Under the pieces are notes generated by a model. That model did not search any database, was not told the origin of the DNA, and saw only the letters and a program-made list of their open reading frames with translations. Positions 17,140 through 22,977 of a stretch of 64,000 nucleotides of DNA are shown piece by piece (the stretch's first letter is position 1; the number at the start of each line of letters is the position of its first letter). This DNA comes from Nautilia sp. PV-1 (GTDB taxonomy: Bacteria > Campylobacterota > Campylobacteria > Campylobacterales > Nautiliaceae): positions 734,501 through 798,500 of the forward strand of contig NZ_CP026530.1 of assembly GCF_004006315.1 (NCBI RefSeq), in the 5' to 3' direction. The position numbers were made by a program, and so were the translations under genes.

Positions 17140-17170
17140 TTAACTAAATATTGAGAGTTTCTTTCCTTTT

Positions 17171-17179
17171 TGCTACAAT
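17171..17179 (+). promoter_or_regulatory. Extended -10 promoter of the MFS-DedA-ABC operon
   Basis: TGCTACAAT, the same extended -10 as before the helicase, 21 bases before the TTG start at 17200. Transcription would begin near 17186, giving a very short leader that includes the AAAAAGGA ribosome site. Confidence 0.5.
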
Positions 17180-17199
17180 TCGCTTCAAAAAGGACTTTC

Positions 17200-18408
17200 T
17201 TGTCTCCGAATTATAAAGAAAACAACATTAAAAACGTACTTCACGGTTTTTTTCTTGCCATAGCAATGGCAGTGGCTGAACCGAGTACAATTTTGCCTCT
17301 GATCGTTCATCATTTCAGTCAAAGCGTTATTCTTGTGGGAGTGTTTGCTTCACTGCTTAGAGGAGGGGCGATTGCGGTACAGCTTTTTGCTGCTTTTTAT
17401 GCTCAGGGATATAAAAAAGTAATGCCTTATATGAGAAAAGTCTTTCTTGCAAGGTTTATAAGCTGGTTTATGATAGGACTGGCTATTTTGCTTATCGGGG
17501 ACAAAAATCCTGCCCTTACTCTGTGGGTGTTTGGAATCGGGCTGTTTATTTTCAGTTTTTCCGCAGGATTCGGAAGCATATATTTCAGTGAAATAATTGC
17601 AAAGATTTTCGATAAGACCGAACGCGGAAAATCTATGGCTAACAGACAGTTTTTTGCCGCGATAGCTTCAATAATAAGCGGAGGTATTGCAGGATGGGTG
17701 CTGAGTAATTTCGAACCTCCTAAAAGTTACGCATATCTTTTTATGATAAGCTCTTTTTTGCTCGGACTCGGTCTTTTGGCTTTCGCAACAATAAAAGAGC
17801 CTGTAAAAGAAAATATCAGACATAAAGAAGAGAGCTTTTGGAAGTTTTTAAAAAACGCTTTTAAGTTTTTAAAAATGGATAAAGCGCTTCAGATTCAGAT
17901 AGTGACTATTTTGTTCAGCTACTCTTTTCTTTTTGCTTTTCCTTTTGTAATTCTTAAAGCAAATCAGACCATACATCTGACAGGATGGCTGATAGGGGGG
18001 TTTGTAACCATACAGATGCTTGGAGCGCTTATCGGAAATCTTGTTTGGAAAAAACTGGCGCCGGAATATAAAAAAATTATAATTTTGGCTTTTATAAGTA
18101 TAATCCTTGCTTTTGTGGTGGCTTTATTTGCAAAAAATGCGTATATGTATGCGCTCGTGTTTTTTTTAATAGGTTTTGCTATGGACGGATTTAAAATAAG
18201 CGGGTTAAATCTCTTATTTGAAATAGCTCCCGAAGATAAAAGACCGATATATGTGGCTTTGCAAAACAATCTGACATCCATTGGTCTGTTTTTTGCAATT
18301 CCGGGCGGGTTTATCCTTGAGAAGTTCGGATATAACGTGCTGTATATTTTTACAATAGTAATGCTTTTTATAGGACTGTTTTTTGCAACAAGGCTTAAGG
18401 CTGTATAA
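17200..18408 (+). CDS. Major facilitator superfamily transporter
   Basis: Twelve-segment inner-membrane permease of 402 residues. I start at TTG 17200, five bases after AAAGGA; an upstream TTG at 17170 lies in the promoter. The loop [19 protein letters not shown]-like region after segment 2 and the large central cytoplasmic loop ([14 protein letters not shown]) fit MFS topology. No substrate motif is obvious. Its stop overlaps the dedA start by one base. A palindromic operator candidate upstream suggests regulated expression. Confidence 0.82.
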
Positions 18409-19670: not shown

Positions 19671-20264
19671 TTAGTCTTCCCATCCTCTTCCGAATCTCCC
19701 GAAGCCTTGGCCTCTGCCAAAACCAAATCCCTGGCCTCTTCCGAATCCGAAACCTCTTCTTCTTCCAAATCCCTGTCCTCTTCCAAGTCCTGCTCTTCTT
19801 CCAAAACCTTGGCCTCTGCCAAAACCGAAACCTTGTCCTCTTCCGAAACCGTAACCTCTTGATGCCCTTCTTGGAAAATCAAAAGCTTCTGAATTGTACT
19901 GAGTATTCATTTCTCCCTCCTTGATATCGTTAATTATTTCATCGATATTTTTTTTATCAGTGATAACATATCCGATACCTTCGGCTTCAAGGTTTCTGAT
20001 CATTCCTTCTCCGAATTCGTCAGAAACAAGCACGTCAACACCCGCTTCTGCTAACAGAGGAGGAATTATTCTGCCTGTTCCGAAACCTCTGCTGCCTTCA
20101 GGCAGGTCTTTTAAATTAATGTGTTCTTCCTGAATTTTCTCCATTACAGGATTTGTGATATAAAACTGTTCGTTTGTATCGGTGTCTATTACTAAAAACC
20201 CTTTGCATAATCCTATATGCGGTGAAAGTGTTTTTTTATTGTTTGTAGGTATTGCTATTCTCAT
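19671..20264 (-). CDS. NifX/NifB-like Fe-Mo-cofactor-binding-domain protein with an RGQGFG-repeat tail
   Basis: Residues 1-115 form the dinitrogenase iron-molybdenum cofactor (NifX/MTH1175) fold: MRIAIPTNNKKTLSPHIG, GRIIPPLLAEAGVDVLV and GEGMIRNLEAEGIGYVIT. Residues 131-197 are a low-complexity tail rich in Arg, Gly and Phe with five copies of RGQGFG and one RGYGFG, ending in Trp-Glu-Asp. No nif structural genes are near, so it is not for nitrogenase; such proteins bind metal or Fe-S clusters in other contexts. The DUF134 gene lies 22 bases upstream and the two are probably cotranscribed from the operator-flanked promoter at 20587. Confidence 0.85.
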   Translation of the reverse strand: MRIAIPTNNKKTLSPHIGLCKGFLVIDTDTNEQFYITNPVMEKIQEEHINLKDLPEGSRGFGTGRIIPPLLAEAGVDVLVSDEFGEGMIRNLEAEGIGYVITDKKNIDEIINDIKEGEMNTQYNSEAFDFPRRASRGYGFGRGQGFGFGRGQGFGRRAGLGRGQGFGRRRGFGFGRGQGFGFGRGQGFGRFGRGWED

Positions 20265-20556: not shown

Positions 20557-20566
20557 TTAAACCTCC

Positions 20567-20582
20567 TTGAACATATGCTCAA
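20567..20582. promoter_or_regulatory. Operator candidate O1 (downstream of the DUF134 -10)
   Basis: TTGAACATATGCTCAA reads nearly the same on the other strand (TTGAGCATATGTTCAA), with only one mismatched pair. It lies between the -10 box and the GGAGG ribosome site of the DUF134 gene, a position where a bound repressor would block transcription. Confidence 0.75.
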
Positions 20583-20586
20583 TGAA

Positions 20587-20615
20587 ATTATACAACTTTT
20601 TTGAACATATGTCAA
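20587..20615 (-). promoter_or_regulatory. Consensus sigma-70 promoter of the DUF134-NifX operon
   Basis: Read on the minus strand: TTGACA (20615-20610), a 17-base spacer, TATAAT (20592-20587). Both hexamers are perfect, which is unusual in a genome where most promoters show only an extended -10. Start of transcription would be near 20580, inside operator O1. Such a strong promoter flanked by two palindromes fits tight repression and strong induction. Confidence 0.85.
20601..20615. promoter_or_regulatory. Operator candidate O2 (over the DUF134 -35)
   Basis: TTGAACATATGTCAA, the same element as O1 with one base missing in the right arm. Its right end is the -35 hexamer itself. Start-to-start spacing from O1 is 34 bases, about three helical turns, so the two sites face the same side of the helix. 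Confidence 0.7.
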
Positions 20616-20707
20616 TATATTTTGATAATTTTATCTTATAATTGGTAAATGAAAATAATTTTTTGTTATACTTCGATCGATTTTATAATTTTTAAGGAGA
20701 TAAATTT

Positions 20708-21904
20708 ATGGCTAAAAAAGTTTTAATATTAGGCGGCGGATTTGCAGCTTTGGAAAGTGCGATATGGCTTAAAAAATACGGCTTTGATGTAACTGTTATC
20801 ACAAACAGAAAATATATGTACGTATATCCTATTTCTATTTGGATTCCTACCGGTGAATATACTTTTGAAGACTGTATCATTGACTGGGAGGATTTGAGAA
20901 AAGTCCACGGTTTTGAGGTTAAATACAATAAAGTTGAAAAAATAGATATTAAAAATAAAAAAGTTGTATGTGAAAACGAGCAGCAGCAGTGCGAGTTTGA
21001 CTATCTTATAATCGCCATCGGTGCTGATAAAGTCAAACATAAAGGGAGTGAACATTTTCTGTCTATATGCGGTGCTCCTGAAGAATCTATTAAAATTAAA
21101 GAAAAACTTGACGAACTCATAAAAAGGGGGCATGGAAAGCTGACATTCGGATTTGGAGGAAATCCTAAAGATCCTAGTAACGTAAGAGGCGGTCCTGCTT
21201 TTGAGCTTATGTTTAACGTACATAATAAATTGAAAAAACTTGGAATAAGAGACAAATTCGAAATAACATTTTTTGCACCGATGCCTAAACCGGGCGCAAG
21301 AATGGGACAAAAAGCGCTGGAAATTATGGATATGTGGTTTGAAAGACTTAATATCAAACAGGTCAAAGGCAAAAAAATTACTGAGTTTGTTGAAGACGGA
21401 ATCATTTTTGAAGACGGAAGCAAACTTGAAAGTGATTTAACAATGTTTATTCCGGCCGGAAACGGTCCGGAGCTGTTTAAAGATACAGGTCTTCCGTTAA
21501 ATGAAGCCGGATTTATAAAAGTTAACGAATACTGCGAGGTTAATCATGATTTTGACGAAACAAGCAGCGATGTTTTTCCTGTTTTTGCAATAGGCGACAG
21601 TGCGGCGATTGACGGTCCCGACTGGAGGGCTAAACAGGGACATTTGGCCGAAGTAATGGCAAGGGTTACCGCATTTAATATTAAAATGATGGAAGAAGGA
21701 AAAGAAATCAGAAAAGAATATATTTCTCATATTAATATTTTATGTGTAATGGACAGCGGTGACGGTGCGGCGTTTGTTTTCAGAAACAATAAAAGAGCAA
21801 TACTAATTCCTCTGCCTATTATCGGACACTGGATGAAAAAAGGGTGGGGTTGGTATTTCAAAAATTCAAAATTAAACAGATTTCCTAGAATTCCGGGAAT
21901 GTAG
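20708..21904 (+). CDS. SQR/FCSD-like FAD-dependent oxidoreductase
   Basis: A 398-residue two-dinucleotide-fold flavoprotein with the FAD motif LGGGFAALESAIWLKK at the N-terminus, IIAIGADK near residue 100 and FAIGDSAAIDGPDW near residue 292. The overall pattern is that of sulfide:quinone oxidoreductases. A Cys in ILCVMDSGDGAAF matches the C-terminal redox Cys of SQR, but the second one, which in SQR precedes Gly-Pro-x-Tyr-Glu, is replaced in NVRGGPAFE. It is therefore either an atypical SQR or a related quinone reductase. It is divergent from the DUF134 operon and shares its control region. It probably works at the membrane surface. Confidence 0.8.
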   Translation: MAKKVLILGGGFAALESAIWLKKYGFDVTVITNRKYMYVYPISIWIPTGEYTFEDCIIDWEDLRKVHGFEVKYNKVEKIDIKNKKVVCENEQQQCEFDYLIIAIGADKVKHKGSEHFLSICGAPEESIKIKEKLDELIKRGHGKLTFGFGGNPKDPSNVRGGPAFELMFNVHNKLKKLGIRDKFEITFFAPMPKPGARMGQKALEIMDMWFERLNIKQVKGKKITEFVEDGIIFEDGSKLESDLTMFIPAGNGPELFKDTGLPLNEAGFIKVNEYCEVNHDFDETSSDVFPVFAIGDSAAIDGPDWRAKQGHLAEVMARVTAFNIKMMEEGKEIRKEYISHINILCVMDSGDGAAFVFRNNKRAILIPLPIIGHWMKKGWGWYFKNSKLNRFPRIPGM

Positions 21905-21908
21905 GAAA

Positions 21909-22238
21909 TCAGATAACTTTTTCTATTTCTTTTTCATCAGTAAGTTTGTATTTTATATTATAAACTTCCAGATTATCAAGCATTCCTTCGCCTAGTTTCT
22001 GTGCAATTAAAAGCTCTACATCATAATTTTTAAGCAGGGGAGGGATTATCTCTCCTGTATGAAGAGCGTTTTCACCGCAGTCTCTTTTTTTAATATGTTT
22101 TTCTTTAACTATGTCAAACATAGGGTTGTTTATCAGTTTTTTTTGTTTTGTTTCTGTATCGTAAAGTAAAAAATATTTGCAAAAAGGAATAAATTCACAA
22201 ATAGTTTTTTCATTTGAAGTCGGAACCGCGATTTTCAT
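21909..22238 (-). CDS. NifX/MTH1175-like cofactor-binding domain protein, short form
   Basis: A 109-residue relative of the 19671-20264 product, without the tail: MKIAVPTSNEKTICEFIPF, GEIIPPLLKNYDVELLIA and GEGMLDNLEVYNIKYKLT align with the longer protein. Two extra cysteines near the N-terminus (ICEF, FCKY) and one in RDCGEN could bind metal. The start lies two bases downstream of the cobB stop, so it is cotranscribed with the sirtuin. The paired paralogues flanking the SQR-like gene suggest a shared redox or metal task. Confidence 0.8.
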   Translation of the reverse strand: MKIAVPTSNEKTICEFIPFCKYFLLYDTETKQKKLINNPMFDIVKEKHIKKRDCGENALHTGEIIPPLLKNYDVELLIAQKLGEGMLDNLEVYNIKYKLTDEKEIEKVI

Positions 22239-22239
22239 T

Positions 22240-22977
22240 TCATTCCTCCAATGCTTTTTTTAGATTATTACAAGCAATTGTAGCACGATTTTGAAGAAAA
22301 ATATCTGTTACAGTGTCTGTATAGTTTGATTTTTCTATATTTATTTCGATAATAGAGGCTCCGTTTTGTTTAGCGATTAGAGGAATCTGGCTTGCCGGCT
22401 GAATTTCTCCGGTTGTACCGATTACAATCATACAGTCGCAGTTTTGTGCAAGCTCAAGAGAGTTTTCCAGAGCTTTTTTAGGGATAGGTTCTTTAAAAAA
22501 AACAAAATTCGGCTTTAAAACTCCCCAGCATTTAGGACACAGCGGAGGCAGATCGTTTAAATCTATATCTTTTGAATCGTATTTCTTAAAACAGTTCATA
22601 CATACCAGATTTTTTGCGGTTCCGTGGAATTCTATTACGTTTTTGTTTCCGGCTTCCTGATGGAGATTATCAATATTCTGTGTTATTACTGCTTCTAAAA
22701 GCCCCTTTTTTTCTAAATCCGCCAAAAAATAATGCGCGTCGTTCGGCTTAATATTTTGCATATAATCGTAAAAAATTTCTTTTATTTTTTCCCAGGCTTC
22801 TTTGGGATTTACGGTAAAATAATCTATATCTAGTATTTTTGGATCATATCTGCTCCAAAGTCCGTCAGGTCCTCTGAATGTAGGTATGCCGCTTTCTACT
22901 GAAATGCCGGCACCGGTAAAAGCGATGCATTTTTTGGAATTTTTTATTAATTCTGCAGCTTTTTTGTAATTATCCAT
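22240..22977 (-). CDS. cobB: NAD-dependent protein deacylase (Sir2/CobB)
   Basis: A 245-residue sirtuin. Visible motifs are GAGISVESGIPTFRG (NAD pocket) near residue 21, the catalytic His region TQNIDNLHQEAG and VIEFHG, and a four-Cys zinc site (CMNC and CPKC). It removes acyl groups from lysines with NAD as co-substrate. The Tyr-Arg pair typical of desuccinylases is not evident to me, so deacetylase is the safer call. A TATAAT on the minus strand at 23040-23035 is the likely -10. It is followed directly by the short NifX-like gene. Confidence 0.92.
   Translation of the reverse strand: MDNYKKAAELIKNSKKCIAFTGAGISVESGIPTFRGPDGLWSRYDPKILDIDYFTVNPKEAWEKIKEIFYDYMQNIKPNDAHYFLADLEKKGLLEAVITQNIDNLHQEAGNKNVIEFHGTAKNLVCMNCFKKYDSKDIDLNDLPPLCPKCWGVLKPNFVFFKEPIPKKALENSLELAQNCDCMIVIGTTGEIQPASQIPLIAKQNGASIIEINIEKSNYTDTVTDIFLQNRATIACNNLKKALEE

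Follow-up and report, generated by a model that had tools for sequence, protein, structure and literature searches.

Predicted operator sites for a DUF134 protein at the promoter of its own operon with a NifX-like gene in Nautilia sp. PV-1

Introduction

Regulators of the SorC/DeoR family use two operator half-sites at a promoter, which are bound by a tetramer. NifX, ORP, and MrpORP proteins (Nitro_FeMo-Co domain) bind metal-sulfur clusters as carriers or scaffolds. In Bacillus subtilis, the dra-nupC-pdp operator of DeoR, a member of the SorC family, is ATTGAACAAAATTTCAATTACCAATTTACATATGTTCAA at -60 to -21, and the second half-operator at its end is TTTACATATGTTCAA (PMC11229326). By count from the published span, this half-operator lies at about -36 to -22 and covers the -35 element.

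DUF134 (UPF0251) is an orphan family with members in archaea and in many phyla of bacteria. No DUF134 operator is reported in the open full-text literature, subscription papers aside. The name DUF134 is rare in open full text, with no paper on the regulator by title and abstract, and UPF0251 appears there in a mutation table only. The exact palindromes described below occur in open full text only in papers that are unrelated, judging by their titles and abstracts.

Here, we analyzed the promoter of a DUF134 gene in a 64-kb stretch of the Nautilia sp. PV-1 genome (the window). The site nearest its -35 element, O1, differs by one base from the DeoR half-operator (TTGACA instead of TTTACA) and lies in the same register. 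The recognition helices are nearly identical (SRPTVSR in DeoR and SRPTFGR in DUF134), and both proteins are associated with palindromic TTGAA half-sites. The systems differ in that DeoR carries a sugar-phosphate effector domain of about 250 residues, whereas the companion of DUF134 is a NifX-type domain, and in the distance between sites, 34 bp for DUF134 versus about 22 bp for DeoR (by count).

Results

The minus-strand gap between the DUF134 gene and the divergent SQR-like gene, read directly, is TTGACATATGTTCAAAAAAGTTGTATAATTTCATTGAGCATATGTTCAAGGAGGTTTAAATG. The first-pass annotation described a consensus promoter with two matching palindromes, and both elements were confirmed: TTGACA, a 17-nt spacer, and TATAAT match the consensus at 12 of 12 positions, one palindrome covers the -35 hexamer, and the other lies between the -10 hexamer and GGAGG (Table 1). 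The CATATG centers are indeed 34 bp apart, but this corresponds to 3.2 helical turns at 10.5 bp per turn rather than exactly three. O1 has one left base fewer than the 16-bp palindrome, and it is this shortening that creates TTGACA. The window site fits the definition of a DUF134 operator, TGArCATATGyTCA within 150 bp upstream of the start of DUF134 or a target gene. Exact TTGANCATATGNTCAA and the O1 motif with at most one mismatch each occur once in the window, compared to 0.01 and 0.02 occurrences in shuffled sequences. The single exact copy of the 14-bp TGARCATATGYTCA in the 1.79-Mb genome is at the DUF134 locus, while a genome scan allowing up to three mismatches was uninformative (232 matches per strand versus 110 in the reversed-pattern control).

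Table 1. Features of the DUF134 locus (positions in the window)
Feature	Position	Strand	Remarks
NifX/ORP-like protein	19671..20264	-	Pfam PF02579 (Nitro_FeMo-Co); second gene of the operon; candidate sensor partner
DUF134/UPF0251 regulator, 89 aa	20287..20556	-	Pfam PF02001; DeoR HTH by profile; sigma4/DeoR fold
Shine-Dalgarno GGAGG of the DUF134 gene	20562..20566	-	abuts O2
Operator O2 (predicted), TTGAGCATATGTTCAA	20567..20582	-	at the transcription start expected from the -10 hexamer, directly before the Shine-Dalgarno
-10 hexamer TATAAT	20587..20592 (20592-20587)	-	17-nt spacer from -35
Operator O1 (predicted), TTGACATATGTTCAA, 15 bp	20601..20615	-	left end is the -35 hexamer TTGACA (20615-20610); conserved in register in Nautiliaceae relatives
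SQR-like flavoprotein	20708..21904	+	divergent neighbor, probably not a target; adjacency not conserved

A DUF134 gene was present in 20 of 41 related genomes and, in a phylum search, in 73 of 397 Campylobacterota genomes; a scan of genome contigs added many other phyla. Loci were chosen by protein and not by DNA motif, and all came from bacterial phyla other than Firmicutes. All 64 palindromic hexamers were counted in the 150 bp upstream of DUF134, after removal of similar upstream regions, and compared to dinucleotide shuffles. CATATG was the top palindromic hexamer in Nautiliaceae (13/13 upstream regions, shuffle mean 0.5), in other Campylobacterota (72/88, shuffle mean 5.1, maximum 11), and in other phyla (21/36, shuffle mean 1.7, maximum 6). 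Almost all Nautiliaceae copies contained both sites in the same register, and the spacing was 34 bp in all 12 upstream regions with two sites. Two sites are thus present here and in most Nautiliaceae, and a single site in most other phyla, where it is a longer palindrome, such as ATTATGAGCATATGCTTATAAT, with an end that also serves as a TATAAT-like element. Among newly fetched Desulfobacterota and Chloroflexota loci, 16 of 47 had the CATATG core, including full sites such as ATTATGAGCATATGCTTATAAT. The motif is therefore found upstream of DUF134 genes across phyla, and its absence from relatives, which had been named as the outcome that would refute the proposed operator, was not observed.

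Exact CATATG was missing upstream of 16/88 Campylobacterota, 15/36 other-phylum, and 31/47 Desulfobacterota and Chloroflexota genes; some of these regions contain near variants or may reflect misplaced starts. Stop codons were observed within the matched frame at L019, L124, and L125, with operators about 230 bp upstream in L019, which suggests that the start sites of some fused DUF134 genes are uncertain.

The palindromes could be imagined as RNA hairpins or as a product of promoter composition, since O2 is within the predicted leader and adjoins GGAGG. This explanation can hardly be credited, because O1 is not transcribed, the single sites of other phyla terminate within the TATAAT-like promoter element, and the enrichment was not reproduced by dinucleotide shuffles.

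Covariation between the recognition helix (pattern S61-R-x-T-F-66-67) and the site was analyzed using one site per locus, picked blind to the tested positions. The base at -4 of the half-sites varied with residue 66: Ser was accompanied by A in 100 cases and by G in 2, Gly by G in 44 and A in 8, Gln by G in 10 and A in 2, and His by A in all 8. Residue 67 corresponded to the base at -6, mostly G for Arg (162/212) and always T for Asn (18/18). Fisher p-values for these associations were 3e-18 and 1e-10 with phylogeny ignored; on a tree computed after masking of the helix, phylogenetically independent pairs were concordant in five of five cases for residue 67, and for residue 66 there were three concordant pairs, no discordant ones, and three ties. 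In Desulfobacterota, TGAACATATGTTCA was seen at Ser66 loci, TGAG or TGGG at Gly66 loci, and TTGGCATATGCTAA at the Gly-Asn locus. Residue 66 of the window protein is Gly, and one half of O2 is TGAG. An exception was L017, with Ser66 and CTCA half-sites. Covariation of the flanking bases with residues 66 and 67 is the strongest reason for the assignment and, at the level of sequence comparison, ties the site to DUF134. Together with cross-phylum conservation, it supports the earlier proposal that TTGArCATATGyTCAA (core TGA-r-CATATG-y-TCA) is the operator of the family.

These results also bear on the idea that DUF134 genes are controlled by another regulator bound to the palindromes, for example an FNR-type protein or a metal sensor of the ArsR/SmtB type. 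The half-sites do resemble some ArsR-family operators (TGAACA-n-TGTTCA), and the targets include a CDF exporter. Nevertheless, we consider such a regulator improbable: the site bases covary with the DUF134 helix, the exact site occurs only once in several other-phylum genomes and, where checked, at the DUF134 gene, and FNR boxes, TTGATnnnnATCAA, differ from these palindromes.

The 89-aa protein matched PF02001 with 70.8 bits (curated cut-off 27) and thus belongs to DUF134/UPF0251. Its recognition helix is formed by S61-R67, and it contains a CFKPC motif (C17, C21). The two cysteines are not regarded as a universal redox switch, since most homologs outside Campylobacterota lack the pair. A DUF134 profile matched the DNA-binding domain of B. 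subtilis DeoR (7bhy, E 4e-6). The AlphaFold model, based on a 62-sequence alignment (mean pLDDT 83), resembled sigmaE region 4 on -35 DNA and the DeoR-DNA complex with a Foldseek probability of 1.00 and an rmsd of about 0.7-1.0 Å over 41-51 residues, with E-values no better than 0.05-0.1, in line with the short length of the domain (DeoR-type HTH: 0.7 Å over 41 residues, E 0.07). The SorC/DeoR C-terminal Rossmann-like effector-binding domain of about 250 residues is absent: Pfam found only DUF134 and sigma-70 r4-like matches in the 89 aa. Because this domain is missing, DUF134 is not a SorC member, though it is predicted to read DNA like one. Similarly, DUF134 shares with sigma factor region 4 its predicted fold and the proposed recognition of a TTGACA-like half-site but, unlike a sigma factor, would read a palindrome, probably as a dimer, and has no RNA polymerase core-binding regions; Pfam and Foldseek found similarity to region 4 only, and neither sigma-70 region 2 nor -10 recognition.

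The sigma-like fold and the -35 hexamer embedded in O1 would also suit an activator, or an activator and repressor in one, aiding RNA polymerase at -35. We give this little credence, because O2 coincides with the expected start site and a promoter that is already a full consensus needs no activator. The positions of the sites, over -35 and at +1, fit repression by DUF134.

The module TTGACATATG-N13-TAnnnT was found in two places in this genome, at the DUF134 operon and before a CDF cation exporter gene (PF01545; G000:C1:321126-321154). All three Nautiliaceae genes of that CDF subtype (G000, G002, and G007) carried the module, the G002 copy with an 18-nt spacer. A second, FieF-like CDF gene had it in G003 and in G009, the latter with both operators; the operator on this CDF type was confined to a few genomes. 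The module also preceded NifX-like operons in G010, G012, and G019 and, with both operators, an operon containing a DUF2202 gene in G007. Across the 41 genomes, the pattern occurred in 30 places compared to 5 for the reversed control. Matches at rhodanese genes in G002 and G007 (L295, L299) were considered coincidental, the site being the Shine-Dalgarno and start codon of a conserved coding sequence, and those in L298, L301, and L296 were discarded as lying inside genes. Control of the SQR-like gene, also suggested by the first-pass annotation, was not supported: SQR is the divergent neighbor at only 2 of 14 Nautiliaceae loci, and O1, at a distance of about 93-107 bp from the SQR start, lies upstream of a promoter that this gene may have for itself.

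A NifX-like gene was located downstream of DUF134 at all 12 assessable Nautiliaceae loci. The frequent neighborhood of these genes noted in the first-pass annotation is an understatement, as the two are fused in many genomes. In many Campylobacterota, the regulator comprises about 196 aa and has a C-terminal domain that is NifX-like. Pfam confirmed the fusion of DUF134 and Nitro_FeMo-Co in L166, L266, L277, and L243; L073 was below the threshold, and in L019 and L099 Pfam recognized no C-terminal domain. NifX is not the partner everywhere: at about 28 Campylobacterota loci, most of them short forms, no NifX gene was detected nearby.

In the fused class, a strong promoter with -35 inside the operator faces the divergent gene, which is cydA (10 loci), a stand-alone NifX, or a SLAC1-type transporter gene. 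In short-form loci, the operator-bearing promoter points toward the regulator, and therefore the operator-promoter module travels with the target gene. Among the proteins encoded downstream of short forms are MinD-like Fe-S ATPases and NifU-like proteins. The cydA genes (cytochrome bd oxidase subunit I) were divergent from DUF134-NifX fusions at L091, L092, L094, L095, L097, L110, L115, L120, L129, and L134; it is possible that fused DUF134 is an unrecognized regulator of cydAB in Campylobacterota. SLAC1/TDT-type transporters recurred as divergent neighbors in both the short and fused classes (L007, L009, L011, L086, L087, and L090), with SLAC1 confirmed by Pfam for L086 only.

The NifX/ORP-like protein of the window weakly matched the C-terminal part of MrpORP. 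It has a long, repetitive Gly/Arg/Phe-rich C-terminal tail (GRGQGFGFGRGQGFGRR...), and comparable small Gly/Arg-rich proteins follow DUF134 in L018, L150, L177, and L188. The window contains a second NifX-like gene (21909-22238), located behind a Sir2 deacylase gene of like orientation (21909-22977 for the pair), and its upstream region has no DUF134 operator site. The nearby MFS transporter at 17170-18408 shares 61% identity with the MFS transporter encoded immediately after DUF134 in L168 and may therefore belong to the same functional group as the DUF134 locus.

Discussion

With a probability of about 0.8, O1 and O2 are binding sites of the DUF134 protein encoded downstream, a predicted SorC/sigma4-type HTH repressor that autoregulates the DUF134-NifX operon, with the NifX-like partner as the probable signal carrier. 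Judging from the sequences compared, the palindromes are very probably sites where DUF134 represses the operon that encodes it, as well as metal-export and NifX-type genes of relatives. Each palindrome is probably bound by a DUF134 dimer, which would contact successive major grooves (TGArCA and TGyTCA). Bound to O1, it would hide the -35 hexamer, and on O2 it would cover the start site, so that with both sites occupied the operon is proposed to shut itself off.

A ligand, either a metal or a metal-sulfur species, would release repression and is probably carried by the NifX-like partner, which is a separate subunit in this genome and is fused to DUF134 in relatives. Fusion and adjacency point to this domain as the probable sensor, and the targets (CDF cation exporters and NifX genes) make a metal or Fe-S signal likely. 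Since the same module precedes a CDF exporter gene in this genome, the response probably concerns metal or Fe-S homeostasis. The domain is of the same kind as in NifX, ORP, and MrpORP, but those proteins are carriers or scaffolds, whereas a role in transcriptional sensing is proposed here for the DUF134-linked NifX domain.

Tentatively, and with somewhat less than even odds, DUF134 and the NifX/ORP domain may represent a new class of metal- or metal-sulfur-sensing repressors, in which a SorC/sigma4 reading head that stands alone and uses a readable two-residue DNA code receives its signal from a detachable or fused NifX-type cluster-binding subunit. Such repressors would control metal export and Fe-S carriers, as well as cytochrome bd oxidase in some Campylobacterota. 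The sites, the two-residue rule linking helix to bases, and the small regulon turn a domain of unknown function into a specific repressor candidate. These findings suggest that NifX/ORP proteins can serve as transcriptional sensors, beyond nitrogen fixation.
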